Shown here in pieces: positions 4,284-11,906 of a DNA stretch of 64,000 nt. The DNA is from Pseudoxanthomonas yeongjuensis (lineage in GTDB: Bacteria > Pseudomonadota > Gammaproteobacteria > Xanthomonadales > Xanthomonadaceae): contig NZ_PDWT01000001.1 of assembly GCF_010093345.1 (NCBI RefSeq), forward strand, positions 62,001 through 126,000, given 5' to 3'. The notes under the pieces were generated by a model. The model was not told the origin of the DNA. It did not search any database and saw only the letters and a list, made by a program, of their open reading frames with translations. Numbering within the stretch: position 1 is the stretch's first letter; the number at the start of each line of letters is the position of its first letter. Both the position numbers and the translations under genes were made by a program.

Positions 4284-5192
4284 CTATTCCTTCGCCGGGA
4301 CCAGGGCGGCGGTTTCACCGTCGGGAACCACGCGGATGAGTCCTTCCTGCGCGGTGCTGGCCACCAGCTTGCCGTCGCGGGTGAAGATCTGCCCGCGCGC
4401 AAGTCCGCGCGAGTTCTGCGCGCTGGGACTATCGATGGAATACAGCAGCCAGTCGTCGGCGCGGAACGGGCGATGGAACCACAGCGCATGGTCCAGCGAC
4501 GCCATCTGCACATTCGGCTGGTAGTAGCTGATGCCGTGCGGATAGTTGGCGGTGCCCAGCAACTGGAAGTCCGAGGCGTAGGCGAGCAATGCATGGTGCA
4601 GCTCCGGCGCGTCGCCGACCGGCTCGGTCAGGCGGAACCAGACCTGCTGGAAAGGAGGGCGCTTGGGCGGATTGAGTTCGTCGCGTGGATAGACGTGGCG
4701 GAATTCGAACGGTCCGCGCCGCGACAGCCAGCGTTGCACCTTCGGCGGCAGCGTGGCCATGACTTCGGCCGGTACCGCCGGCGCCGGTTCGATGTCCTCG
4801 GGGCGCGGCACTTCCGGCATCGACAGCTGGTGCTCGACGCCGGCTTCGTGCTCCTGGAACGAGGCGGCGCAGAAGAAGATGACCTTGCCGTGCTGGATCG
4901 CGGTCACCCGCCGCACCGAGAAGCTGCCGCCATCGCGGGTCCGGTCCACGTCGTAGACGATCGGGTGCTCGATGTCGCCGGCGCGCAGGAAATAGGCATG
5001 CAGCGAATGGGCCATGCGGCCGCCATCCACGGTGGCCTGCGCCGCCGACAGCGCCTGGCCCAGGACCTGGCCGCCGAACACGTACTTGGTGCCGATGTCG
5101 CGGCTCTGGCCACGGAACAGGTTGTCCTCCAGCCGCTCCAGCGAGAGCAGCTCGATCAGTTCGGAAACGACGGGTTCGGGTGTGGAAGACAA
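4284..5192 (-). CDS. tesB: Acyl-CoA thioesterase II
   Basis: A 302-residue double-hotdog thioesterase that hydrolyses medium- and long-chain acyl-CoA to free fatty acid and CoA in the cytosol. The first hotdog contains YVFGGQVLGQALSAA (37-51) and the HSLHAYFL strand. The second contains the catalytic Asp in ASLDHALWFHRPFR (Asp234), Ser255/Ser257 in DSPSAQNSRGL and Gln282 in STAQEGLIR, matching the Asp/Ser-Thr/Gln triad of TesB. Length is normal for the family. It is followed after 3 bases by the small membrane protein gene. Upstream lies the five-copy repeat array. Confidence 0.95.
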   Translation of the reverse strand: MSSTPEPVVSELIELLSLERLEDNLFRGQSRDIGTKYVFGGQVLGQALSAAQATVDGGRMAHSLHAYFLRAGDIEHPIVYDVDRTRDGGSFSVRRVTAIQHGKVIFFCAASFQEHEAGVEHQLSMPEVPRPEDIEPAPAVPAEVMATLPPKVQRWLSRRGPFEFRHVYPRDELNPPKRPPFQQVWFRLTEPVGDAPELHHALLAYASDFQLLGTANYPHGISYYQPNVQMASLDHALWFHRPFRADDWLLYSIDSPSAQNSRGLARGQIFTRDGKLVASTAQEGLIRVVPDGETAALVPAKE

Positions 5193-5237
5193 GGGGCGGC
5201 GCCTGTGCGGTGCGATGTCCAGGAATTATACCGGCCC

Positions 5238-5646
5238 GTAGGAGCGGGCCTTGTCCGCGATGCTCCTGCGCGATCAGGCCGAAAGGCATCGCGCCCAAGG
5301 GGCGCTCCTACACTTGCTTCCGTAGGAGCGGGCCTTGCCCGCGATGCTCCTGCGCGATCAGGCCGAAAGGCATCGCGCCCAAGGGGCGCTCCTACTCTTG
5401 CTTCCGTAGGAGCGGGCCTTGCCCGCGATGCTCCTGCGCGATCAGGCCGAAAGGCATCGCGCCCAAGGGGCGCTCCTACACTTGCTTCCGTAGGAGCGGG
5501 CCTTGCCCGCGATGCTCCTGAGCGATCTGGCCGAAAGGTATCGCGCCCAAGGGGCGCTCCTACACTTGCTTCGTAGGAGCGGGCCTTGCCCGCGATGCTC
5601 CTGCGCGATCTGGCCGAAAGGCATCGCGCCCAAGGGGCGCTCCTAC
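5238..5646. repeat. Tandem array of five GTAG-type REP units (84-bp period)
   Basis: Five nearly identical units start at 5238, 5322, 5406, 5490 and 5573. Each runs GTAGGAGCGGGCCTTGCCCG, then GATGCTCCTG, CGATCAGGCCGAAAG, GCATCGCGCCC, AAGGGGCGCTCCTAC and a short CACTTGCTTCC linker. Outer arms GTAGGAGC/GCTCCTAC pair, inner GATGC/GCATC pair, and each side carries its own small hairpin (GGGCctTGCCC and GCGCCCaaGGGGCGC), so a unit can fold as a cloverleaf. It fills the whole 450-base gap between tesB and ampD. The last unit supplies the ampD stop codon. Confidence 0.95.
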
Positions 5647-9606: not shown

Positions 9607-9722
9607 TCGTCGAGGCGAATGGGTGTCTGCTTTCGACCCGGAGGCGTACGCGCACCGCGTCTTCCCGCCTCCGCATGGGATCGCGGATAGAATCAGCATC
9701 CCACTATTCTTCAAACTGCGAA

Positions 9723-11357
9723 ATGAAAGATACCCCCGGCTGGGCCAATGACTGCTACATCACCGTACACGACGATGACGACTCTCCTTTTGAGGGCGTA
9801 GTCGAGTTGCTGCGTCGTTGCGTCGGGTTTGGACTGGATAACGCGCAGGGTTGGGCGCGGCAAATCAGTCGCAGTGGAAGCGCCCGGCTGGGGCCTTGGA
9901 CGTCGGCAATCGCACATTCCATCCGTGATGAGATGGCGCGTCTGGCGCCGACTTATGGTTGCCGTAAGCTTCGTGTGGCACTGGAGGACCAGTCGGAGCA
10001 GGCTGCGCCCGCCATGACCAGTCTGGCCCAGAAAGCGCATCACGTCCTGAGCGAACTCTTTGGCGAGTGGCCGGCCGACAGTCTCGTTATTGTCAGGCGC
10101 GAATTTCCCGCTTACCTGCGCGTGGATGTGCAGAGCGCGCTGGATTCGCTGACGACCGGCGCTCGTCGCGTGGGAATCCATAGCCGCAATCGCTATGACG
10201 CATCGGACATGGCTGCTCTGATCTCCGAACGCGACCAGGCCAAGCTGGTCGGGGCGCTTCAGTTCGAGGACATCGACATAGGTGAGGGGCAGCCGATACG
10301 CCTCGCGACGAACTGTCTTTCGCTGATCAATGACGAAAAAGTGCCGCTAGCGGTTTGGGTCAACTTGCGTTCCGACTATTCGGAGAGTTTGCAGCTAAGC
10401 GTAGAGGTTCTTGCGCCTCCGGGCGAAGAGGCGGCCGCAAGGACGGTCGCGATGCTTGAGGCGATCGAGGCGGCCGTGGCGCAGGGCCGAAGCTATCGCG
10501 GCAAGATACTCTCGCTGGAAGCGAACGAGACTTTTCGCGGTACGGCCGCGAATGCCTTGACTGTCCACTTCCGCACTCCGGTCGCAGAGCACGAACTTAT
10601 CCTGCCGGATGTCGTGAAGAATGCGTTGGATAGGCATATCATCCGGTTTGCGGCTGAACGCGACGCCCTTAAGTCGCTAGGCCAGTCCGGACGCAAAGGT
10701 GTGCTGTTGTATGGGCCGCCGGGTACGGGCAAGACCCACACCATCCGCTATCTCGCTGAACGCTTGCACGACCACACGACGTTCCTCGTCACGGCTGAGC
10801 AAATAGGGTTGATCGCAGTCTATTTTCGGCTGGCCCGGTTGTTCGCGCCATCGATCATCGTGATCGAAGATGCCGACCTGATCGCACGTCAACGCGAAGA
10901 CATGAATTCGGCTTGCGACGAGGTGATGCTTAACCGTCTCTTGAACGAGATGGACGGCCTGAGGTCCGACGCCGATATCTTTGTCGTCATGACCACAAAC
11001 CGGCCACGGACGCTGGAAACCGCCTTGATCCAGCGCCCAGGCCGCATCGACCACGCCATCGAAGTGCCGGTTCCGGATGCTGTCTGCCGAGGACGCCTGC
11101 TGCATCTTTACGGTGGTTCCTTGGCCATCCAGCCGAAGGAGCATGAGAAGCTGATCGAGCGTACCGAGGGAGTGAGCGCGGCCTTCATTAAGGAAGTTGC
11201 ACGCCGTCTTGCGCAGCAATCCATCAGTGCAAGGCATCCTGGTCAAATCGACGCGGATGACCTTGAAGTCGTCCTGGAGGAAATGCTTTCCGAACGCGAC
11301 GGACTGAACTTGCGGCTTCTCGGGGGCGATGTGGAAGCGATTGCGCAGCCGGGTTGA
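9723..11357 (+). CDS. ClpS-like domain fused to an AAA+ ATPase
   Basis: A 544-residue protein starting at the ATG at 9723. Residues about 10-90 follow the ClpS pattern: CYITVHDDDDSPFEGVVELL matches the adaptor's NDDYTPMEFV region, then a helix, then SGSARLG, and a final RKLRVALED strand. Two acidic residues aligned with the N-degron-binding Asp pair are kept (Asp18, Asp19), but the family Asn is Asp17 and the family His is Ser49. Residues about 100-300 are unassigned. Residues about 305-495 are an AAA module: Walker A GPPGTGKT (331-338), Walker B IIVIEDADLI with Glu-Asp order, sensor 1 MTTNRP, and QRPGRIDHAIEVPVPD (Arg fingers). No protease domain is present. Codon use looks AT-richer than that of rlmL. 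The function is unknown; an adaptor-fused unfoldase is inferred. Confidence 0.8.
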   Translation: MKDTPGWANDCYITVHDDDDSPFEGVVELLRRCVGFGLDNAQGWARQISRSGSARLGPWTSAIAHSIRDEMARLAPTYGCRKLRVALEDQSEQAAPAMTSLAQKAHHVLSELFGEWPADSLVIVRREFPAYLRVDVQSALDSLTTGARRVGIHSRNRYDASDMAALISERDQAKLVGALQFEDIDIGEGQPIRLATNCLSLINDEKVPLAVWVNLRSDYSESLQLSVEVLAPPGEEAAARTVAMLEAIEAAVAQGRSYRGKILSLEANETFRGTAANALTVHFRTPVAEHELILPDVVKNALDRHIIRFAAERDALKSLGQSGRKGVLLYGPPGTGKTHTIRYLAERLHDHTTFLVTAEQIGLIAVYFRLARLFAPSIIVIEDADLIARQREDMNSACDEVMLNRLLNEMDGLRSDADIFVVMTTNRPRTLETALIQRPGRIDHAIEVPVPDAVCRGRLLHLYGGSLAIQPKEHEKLIERTEGVSAAFIKEVARRLAQQSISARHPGQIDADDLEVVLEEMLSERDGLNLRLLGGDVEAIAQPG

Positions 11358-11370
11358 TCGTCAGCCAGCA

Positions 11371-11460
11371 TAGCCCGGGTAAGCGCAGCGCACCCGGGGC
11401 GCTTTGCACCCTCGGAACTCCAGGAGCCGCGGGTGCGGCCGTTGGCCTTACCCGGGCTGC
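11371..11460. repeat. AGCCCGGGTAAGCGC-type inverted repeat
   Basis: TAGCCCGGGTAAGCGCAGCG at the left is matched by GCCTTACCCGGGCTGC at the right, with inner CACCCGGGG and CCGCGGGTG pairing. It opens the 549-base gap between the AAA+ gene and ald. Confidence 0.75.
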
Positions 11461-11499
11461 GCCCGCCCACGGCAGCTGCGAGCCCGCTCCTGCGATGCT

Positions 11500-11747
11500 T
11501 TCAGCGTCTGCGCCGCCCCCCAAGCGCTTCCGCCGACGCTTTTAACGTCATCGTCGAGGTGAAAGGCCTCATCGATGGCGCTTTTTCATCGTCGCCGACG
11601 TTTTCCACATTGAAAGCAACGTCGATACCCCTCTCCGCTGACGTTTCAGCGTCGGCAGAGGCGCTCAAAGGGTCGCGGGTGACGCTTTTTTCGTCAGCAA
11701 TGACGGTAAAAGCTTCGACGCTGAAGTTTTTTCGTGGAGGGCGTCGC
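11500..11747. other. Hairpin-dense non-coding stretch rich in GACGYT/ARCGTC words
   Basis: Within the 549-base gap, some fifteen GACG or CGTC words occur in about 240 bases, and several form small hairpins. CGCTGA-CGTT-TCAGCG is at 11636-11651, TGACG...CGTCA at 11680-11696, and CTTC...GAAG at 11713-11726. Three T-runs of six or more alternate with them. An 82-codon frame crosses it on the minus strand, but its residues have no domain character and it lacks a good start. I see no gene here; its role (transcript 3' region, protein-binding array or remnant) is open. Confidence 0.5.
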
Positions 11748-11774
11748 AAAAAGCGCCGGCGCTGGCGCTTTTTT
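11748..11774. terminator. Strong bidirectional intrinsic terminator
   Basis: AAAAAGCGCC pairs with GGCGCTTTTTT around GGCGCT. It has A and T tracts on opposite sides, so it can end transcription from the AAA+ side and from ald. Confidence 0.85.
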
Positions 11775-11815
11775 ACCGGATCAGGCGACCGAGGACAGGA
11801 AGCGCCTTGGGCGTT

Positions 11816-11881
11816 GTGGGAGCGACGTCAGTCGCGAAGGCTTTACCGATTGAGTCGCATCGCGACTGACGTCGCTCCCAC
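11816..11881. repeat. GTGGG-type REP palindrome (GACGTCAGTCGC module)
   Basis: GTGGGAGCGACGTCAGTCGC at the left, GCGACTGACGTCGCTCCCAC at the right, with a short loop. It lies 25 bases after the ald stop. Confidence 0.9.
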
Positions 11882-11906
11882 AACAACCGCTACGCGATCA
11901 GGCGGA

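Follow-up and report, generated by a model that had tools for sequence, protein, structure and literature searches.

A ClpS-type domain fused to an AAA module without pore loop 1 in Pseudoxanthomonas yeongjuensis: a candidate stand-alone remodelling ATPase

Introduction

ClpS is known as a free-standing protein, an adaptor that supplies the protease ClpAP with N-degron substrates. A homologous N-domain occurs in the eukaryotic N-recognins, of which UBR1 is part of an E3 ligase and has no ATPase role. ClpX carries a C4 zinc-binding domain at the N terminus of its own AAA+ module. Among proteins with a single AAA module, Bcs1 acts as a chaperone/translocase, and YjoB of Bacillus subtilis is a putative substrate-specific chaperone that is not known to have a ClpS domain.

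Here we describe a gene that joins elements of these systems in one chain. It lies in a 64,000-nucleotide stretch of the Pseudoxanthomonas yeongjuensis genome (contig NZ_PDWT01000001.1, positions 62,001 to 126,000), which is called the window below. A preliminary description, made from the sequence alone, had proposed that a ClpS-patterned domain is fused here to an AAA ATPase without a protease, and that the product could be a self-contained unfoldase or a defense ATPase. Features are collected in Table 1.

Table 1. Features of the locus, in window coordinates
Feature	Position	Strand	Basis
Segment inserted relative to a congener (G026)	9607..11812		Empty site in L157; end positions approximate
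Gene: ClpS-like domain, middle domain, AAA	9723..11357	+	ORF, 544 aa, start ATG 9723
ClpS-like N-domain, residues 1-92 (Pfam match 11-77)	9723..9998	+	PF02617, 26.7 bits; AF2 and Foldseek, top matches all ClpS
HDDDD, residues 16-20 (ClpS L33, N34, D35, D36, Y37 positions)	9768..9782	+	Column counts against host ClpS
Ser49 at ClpS His66 position	9867..9869	+	Alignment column counts
Middle domain, residues 93-300	9999..10622	+	No Pfam family; conserved motifs; profile A3; low-confidence model
Single AAA module, residues 301-520	10623..11282	+	PF00004, 82.6 bits; phmmer to Cdc48 D1/D2
Walker A GPPGTGKT, residues 331-338	10713..10736	+	Sequence
Pore-loop-1 deletion site, about 8 residues	10800..10820	+	phmmer gap and family alignment
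Swapped Walker B Glu382-Asp383 (IEDAD)	10866..10871	+	Sequence and alignment
Putative Arg fingers R438, R441 (RPGR)	11034..11045	+	Invariant in alignment A1
Dispersed repeat, common in genus	11363..11458		Genus-wide repeat matches
Palindrome with 25-nt arms (100% complementary), dispersed repeat frequent in genus	11813..11884		Similar palindrome at empty site

One gene, one chain

The reading frame is unbroken and intact over all of its codons. DNA likeness to the nearest relative, on a contig of a Lysobacterales metagenome-assembled genome (L003), starts at position 9720, three bases before the ATG, which supports that codon as the start. An artefact of assembly or frame can be ruled out, since the same fusion is found in L003, a different genome that shares no other DNA with the window; ClpS motifs in 44 of the 52 loci retrieved from other genomes (some of them duplicates) argue further against it. 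The covalent union of ClpS and AAA parts in a single gene is thus real.

A ClpS-type N-domain

Scanned in isolation, the N-domain matches the Pfam ClpS family over residues 11-77 with 26.7 bits (E 4.8e-6, cut-off 23); scored within the full chain, the same match reaches 22.6 bits, slightly under the cut-off. The N-domain of L003 scores 30.9 bits, and ClpS is matched by all 14 family N-domains scanned, with a best E of 2.8e-17. An AlphaFold (AF2) model of residues 1-100 alone, built template-free from two sequences, has a mean pLDDT of 82 (about 95 in the core) and the strand-helix-helix-strand-helix-strand order of the ClpS fold. When this model was compared with the PDB by Foldseek, the best 36 matches were all ClpS structures (TMt 0.69-0.87, rmsd mostly 1.5-2.0 Å). 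Profile and predicted fold agree with the pattern read at the outset, and the N-domain is a genuine ClpS-type fold; the outcome that would have refuted the preliminary description, no ClpS likeness of residues 1-95 by either approach, did not occur. The host genome also encodes a normal ClpS (118.6 bits).

The pocket compared with ClpS and UBR1

Pocket columns were counted in 28 aligned family members against the host ClpS. Aspartate is kept at the D35 position in all 28 (Asp18 in the window protein), and the Thr38 and Pro39 positions are kept in 27. The L33 position has become His in 27 of the 28, giving the family-specific His16 of the window protein; the N34 position is Asp in the window protein; and the His66 position holds Glu or Asp in 26 members and Ser49 in the window protein. 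Of the amine-binding set N34, D35 and H66, the window protein therefore keeps only D35. Neither the gatekeeper position M40, which is variable and often acidic, nor the pocket position M62 is conserved, so that N-degron binding may be lost. E79 and K84, by which ClpS contacts ClpA, are both missing from every member (0/28), a loss that is consistent with action in cis. Fold, Pfam match and the Asp35/Thr38/Pro39 site are thus common to ClpS and the window protein; ClpS, however, is free, whereas here the domain is fused to an AAA module and the His66, M40, E79 and K84 positions are not kept.

The preliminary description had stressed the replaced ligand histidine. The replacement stands, with Ser49 aligned to His66 and Asp18 to Asp35, but it deserves less weight than it was given: relatives are acidic at this position, and the N-domain of human UBR1, which binds type-2 N-degrons, has Asp263 there (PMC8346999). 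A lost histidine accordingly does not exclude binding of N-termini. The acid is what UBR1 shares with most family members; the setting differs, a ligase in the one case and an AAA ATPase in the other.

Changes of this kind could also mean that the ClpS-type domain has been repurposed as a protein-protein or assembly module, holding a specific folded partner by another face and no longer reading N-termini. The unconserved His66, M40 and M62 positions, the nearly invariant new His at position 33 and the frequent acid at position 40 speak for such a change of use, as does the exchange or absence of N-domains among subfamilies (see “A modular family”). We find it doubtful nonetheless, because the Asp35/Thr38/Pro39 rim of the pocket is almost invariant, and a pure scaffold would not need that.

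An AAA module without pore loop 1

Alignment A1 shows no change in Walker A, the Glu-Asp Walker B, the sensor Asn or the arginines of RPGR, save for Gly/Pro variation inside Walker A; the single module, its motifs and the Bcs1-like signature noted earlier are all present. Among the AAA domains in the PDB, phmmer places those of Cdc48/p97 nearest, and the alignment to Cdc48 leaves a gap of 8-9 residues precisely over pore loop 1. When the family was aligned with FtsH, Cdc48 and phage proteins of the Bcs1-like kind, all members compared had this deletion of about 8 residues, shortened to 5 in the row of Sinorhizobium garamanticum; the preliminary description had overlooked it. The missing segment, the loop with which FtsH and Cdc48 grip their substrates, is MFVGVGAS in FtsH and MWYGESES in Cdc48 D2, so that the aromatic-hydrophobic-Gly pore loop 1 characteristic of threading unfoldases is absent from all of them.

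This deletion bears directly on the self-contained N-degron unfoldase suggested at first, in which the ClpS part would capture destabilizing N-termini and the AAA ring would thread and unfold the captured protein, alone or for a host protease. A ClpS fold with its Asp35 site retained, an AAA sequence that by phmmer is closest to Cdc48 among solved structures, and the tolerance of the UBR1 N-domain for an acid at position 66 are all in keeping with that proposal. Its threading step is weakened by the loss of pore loop 1 throughout the members compared. No protease domain was found in the window protein by Pfam, as had been claimed, no HbYX motif was seen by inspection of its C terminus (...EAIAQPG), and no protease gene was found nearby. 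We consider an N-degron unfoldase unlikely.

Bcs1 likewise has no conserved pore loop (PMC11143374), and the swapped Glu-Asp Walker B is common to the family and the Bcs1-like phage proteins. A whole-chain Foldseek search ranked YjoB first (PDB 7w42; 411 columns, about 20% identity) and placed Bcs1 within the top 50, and the two best matches in a viral library are named BCS1. Outside the AAA module the match to YjoB is soft, because the middle domain is weakly modelled (pLDDT about 30-65). A short pore loop 1, a Glu-Asp Walker B, a single AAA module and the whole-chain fold match link the family to Bcs1, whereas the family is bacterial and bears ClpS or C4 N-domains, and the window protein yields no match to BCS1_N, either among the best 25 of 29 Pfam matches or in scans of the N-domain and middle domain at E up to 10. 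No hydrophobic segment, such as the N-terminal transmembrane helix of Bcs1 would form, was seen by inspection of the window protein. In the AAA tree, the family forms its own clade (90/95, long branches) apart from the Bcs1-like and Cdc48/FtsH rows; given this separation, loss of the pore loop may be convergent and the function may differ. The resemblance to Bcs1 is one of form and does not prove membership.

A modular family

Between the N-domain and the AAA module, the motifs DIDIG and YRGK-LS-E are conserved family-wide, and a sequence comparison of this middle domain with the PDB gave nothing convincing. The profile A3, built on the middle domain, was used to find the family in genome contigs. 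Under a strict search of such contigs, L003 was the only close relative (72% identity), and among the matches listed from other searched Lysobacterales genomes none carried the non-AAA part. In the phylum sample, A3 found six genomes, all of one large-genome genus, probably Bradyrhizobium; within that genus 50 of 99 genomes were positive. The family is apparently sparse and undescribed.

Domain order varies among its members. A ClpS domain, a C4 finger, the middle domain and the AAA module follow one another in 40 of the 52 loci retrieved from the large-genome genus (some duplicates), and the same order recurs in L187, from a second family of that order of bacteria. The best Pfam family for the C4 finger is the ClpX type in 5 of 9 cases (best E 2.6e-6). 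The window protein and L003 have the ClpS domain without the finger. In a distant homologue from a gammaproteobacterium (G307; contig L040, 721-2322, minus strand), a ClpX-type finger (35.8 bits, cut-off 27) stands ahead of the middle domain and AAA module with no ClpS domain, and plasmid proteins of Rhizobium, Sinorhizobium and Mesorhizobium, together with L186, consist of middle domain and AAA module only. Across these architectures, then, the recognition module is gained, lost or swapped ahead of a constant middle domain and AAA module. The C4 segments of the relatives match the N-terminal zinc-binding domain of ClpX, which the window protein does not have; in ClpX, however, this finger sits on the ClpX AAA+ module, and in the relatives on a classic-type AAA.

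At three loci in the genus of G780 (L045, L113 and L124), the ClpS region is apparently truncated or frameshifted while the middle domain and AAA module are intact; this damage suggests repeated N-domain loss. An in-frame N-domain upstream of the Sinorhizobium numidicum gene (query residues 32-98) was dismissed: the match lies in sequence outside the gene and is due to chance. Viral contigs yielded no ClpS fusion, their matches sharing the AAA module only, save for one protein of a large phage (L052, 5848-7272, plus strand, on a 211 kb contig) that has a possible relative of the middle domain and an AAA module with a similarly short pore loop 1.

Acquisition, selection and flanking DNA

As first noted, the gene is richer in AT than its neighbors: its GC3 is 0.69 against 0.85-0.88, and its codon use is atypical. 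At the DNA level, the window and L003 are alike in the gene alone. In the congener G026, rlmKL and ald lie only about 80 bp apart, a stretch that includes a palindromic repeat; in the window the corresponding gap is 2.3 kb. Horizontal acquisition in this lineage, proposed before, remains the best reading of these data. The downstream non-coding DNA had been called odd; in part it consists of dispersed repeats of the genus. Short, imperfect hairpins with T runs at their ends (GACGCTTTT-type) are densely arrayed over positions 11500-11790, and some of this array is found again, at 69%, in the congener G019. An Rfam match to mir-489 (11799-11893), under the gathering score, was dismissed as an artefact of the palindrome. 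Elsewhere in the window, tandem DNA repeats at 5180-5620, whose predicted frames repeat RRSGPCPRCSCAIRPKGIAPKGRSY, lie beside an acyl-CoA thioesterase-like gene (4284-5192).

Insertion in this lineage and atypical codon use might be expected of an acquired gene in non-functional decay. Against that stand the intact frame, the invariant motifs and a dN/dS between the window and L003 of about 0.16 for the whole gene and 0.19 for the ClpS part, ratios that point clearly to purifying selection; decay is extremely improbable.

Gene neighborhoods and the defense reading

The window gene is isolated, as had been observed. When neighbors in other genomes were surveyed, as had been suggested, neither a recurrent operon partner nor an adjoining protease gene was found across the family loci covered. 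The commonest context of the relatives is chromosomal backbone, with genes for a rhodanese, a SerA-like protein, a tannase/feruloyl esterase, MarR, an enoyl-CoA hydratase, a chemotaxis transducer and DHDPS. What looked like a second copy of the gene proved to be an MFS transporter, merged in the clustering.

On rhizobial plasmids (L034-L038), homologues without the N-domain, possibly the y4kL family of pNGR234a, occur near nif genes (fdxB, nifX-associated; L038), near groES/groEL with TlpA and hemN (L034, L035), and near cytochrome P450, SDR and prenyl synthase genes resembling a gibberellin operon (L037).

An IetA-type ATPase defending against phages or mobile elements would fit the sporadic distribution, the insertion in this lineage and the matches of the AAA module to IetA profiles (80 bits in PADLOC, about 77 bits in NCBIfam). 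The likeness is confined to the AAA part, however, and at 76.6 bits falls far under the curated equivalog cut-off of 510; no IetS-like partner or defense genes were found in the neighborhood, and the relatives are located in ordinary backbone or symbiosis regions. The suggestion of a defense ATPase thus lacks support, and we regard it as very unlikely.

Proposed mechanism and outlook

We give an even chance to a stand-alone, non-threading AAA remodelling ATPase that has its own binding module of the ClpS type. The ClpS-type domain, together with the ClpX-type C4 finger in most relatives, would bind a partner protein, probably held by its free N-terminus at the conserved Asp35 site. Driven by ATP, a ring, whose assembly we infer, would then shift this partner, dissociate it or refold it in the manner of Bcs1 or YjoB, with no threading through a pore-loop-1 paddle and no hand-over to a protease. 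Its AAA motor has no gripping loop of the kind found in protein shredders, and the family may act in remodelling rather than destroying chosen proteins. More tentatively, the protein may be a bacterial N-recognin, in which a UBR1-like, acid-containing ClpS pocket reads N-termini and the pore-loop-less AAA ring remodels or releases the marked protein; this is possible but not probable.

The modules are individually known, and the combination of ClpS or C4 recognition domains with a pore-loop-less AAA appears to be new. Literature searches (y4kL, ClpS fusions, and ClpS with a ClpX zinc domain in Bradyrhizobium) found no description, subscription papers being mostly outside their scope, which supports the earlier view of an undescribed system. 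ClpS and the ClpX zinc finger, as interchangeable modules on an AAA without a threading loop, would uncouple N-terminal recognition from degradation. The family offers a single-chain system for asking what ClpS-type recognition does without a protease, and whether a UBR1-like acidic pocket still reads N-termini. Should it prove to be an N-recognin, it would represent a branch of the N-degron pathway that does not end in degradation and in which Clp-type recognition modules (ClpS, the ClpX zinc finger) can be exchanged for one another.
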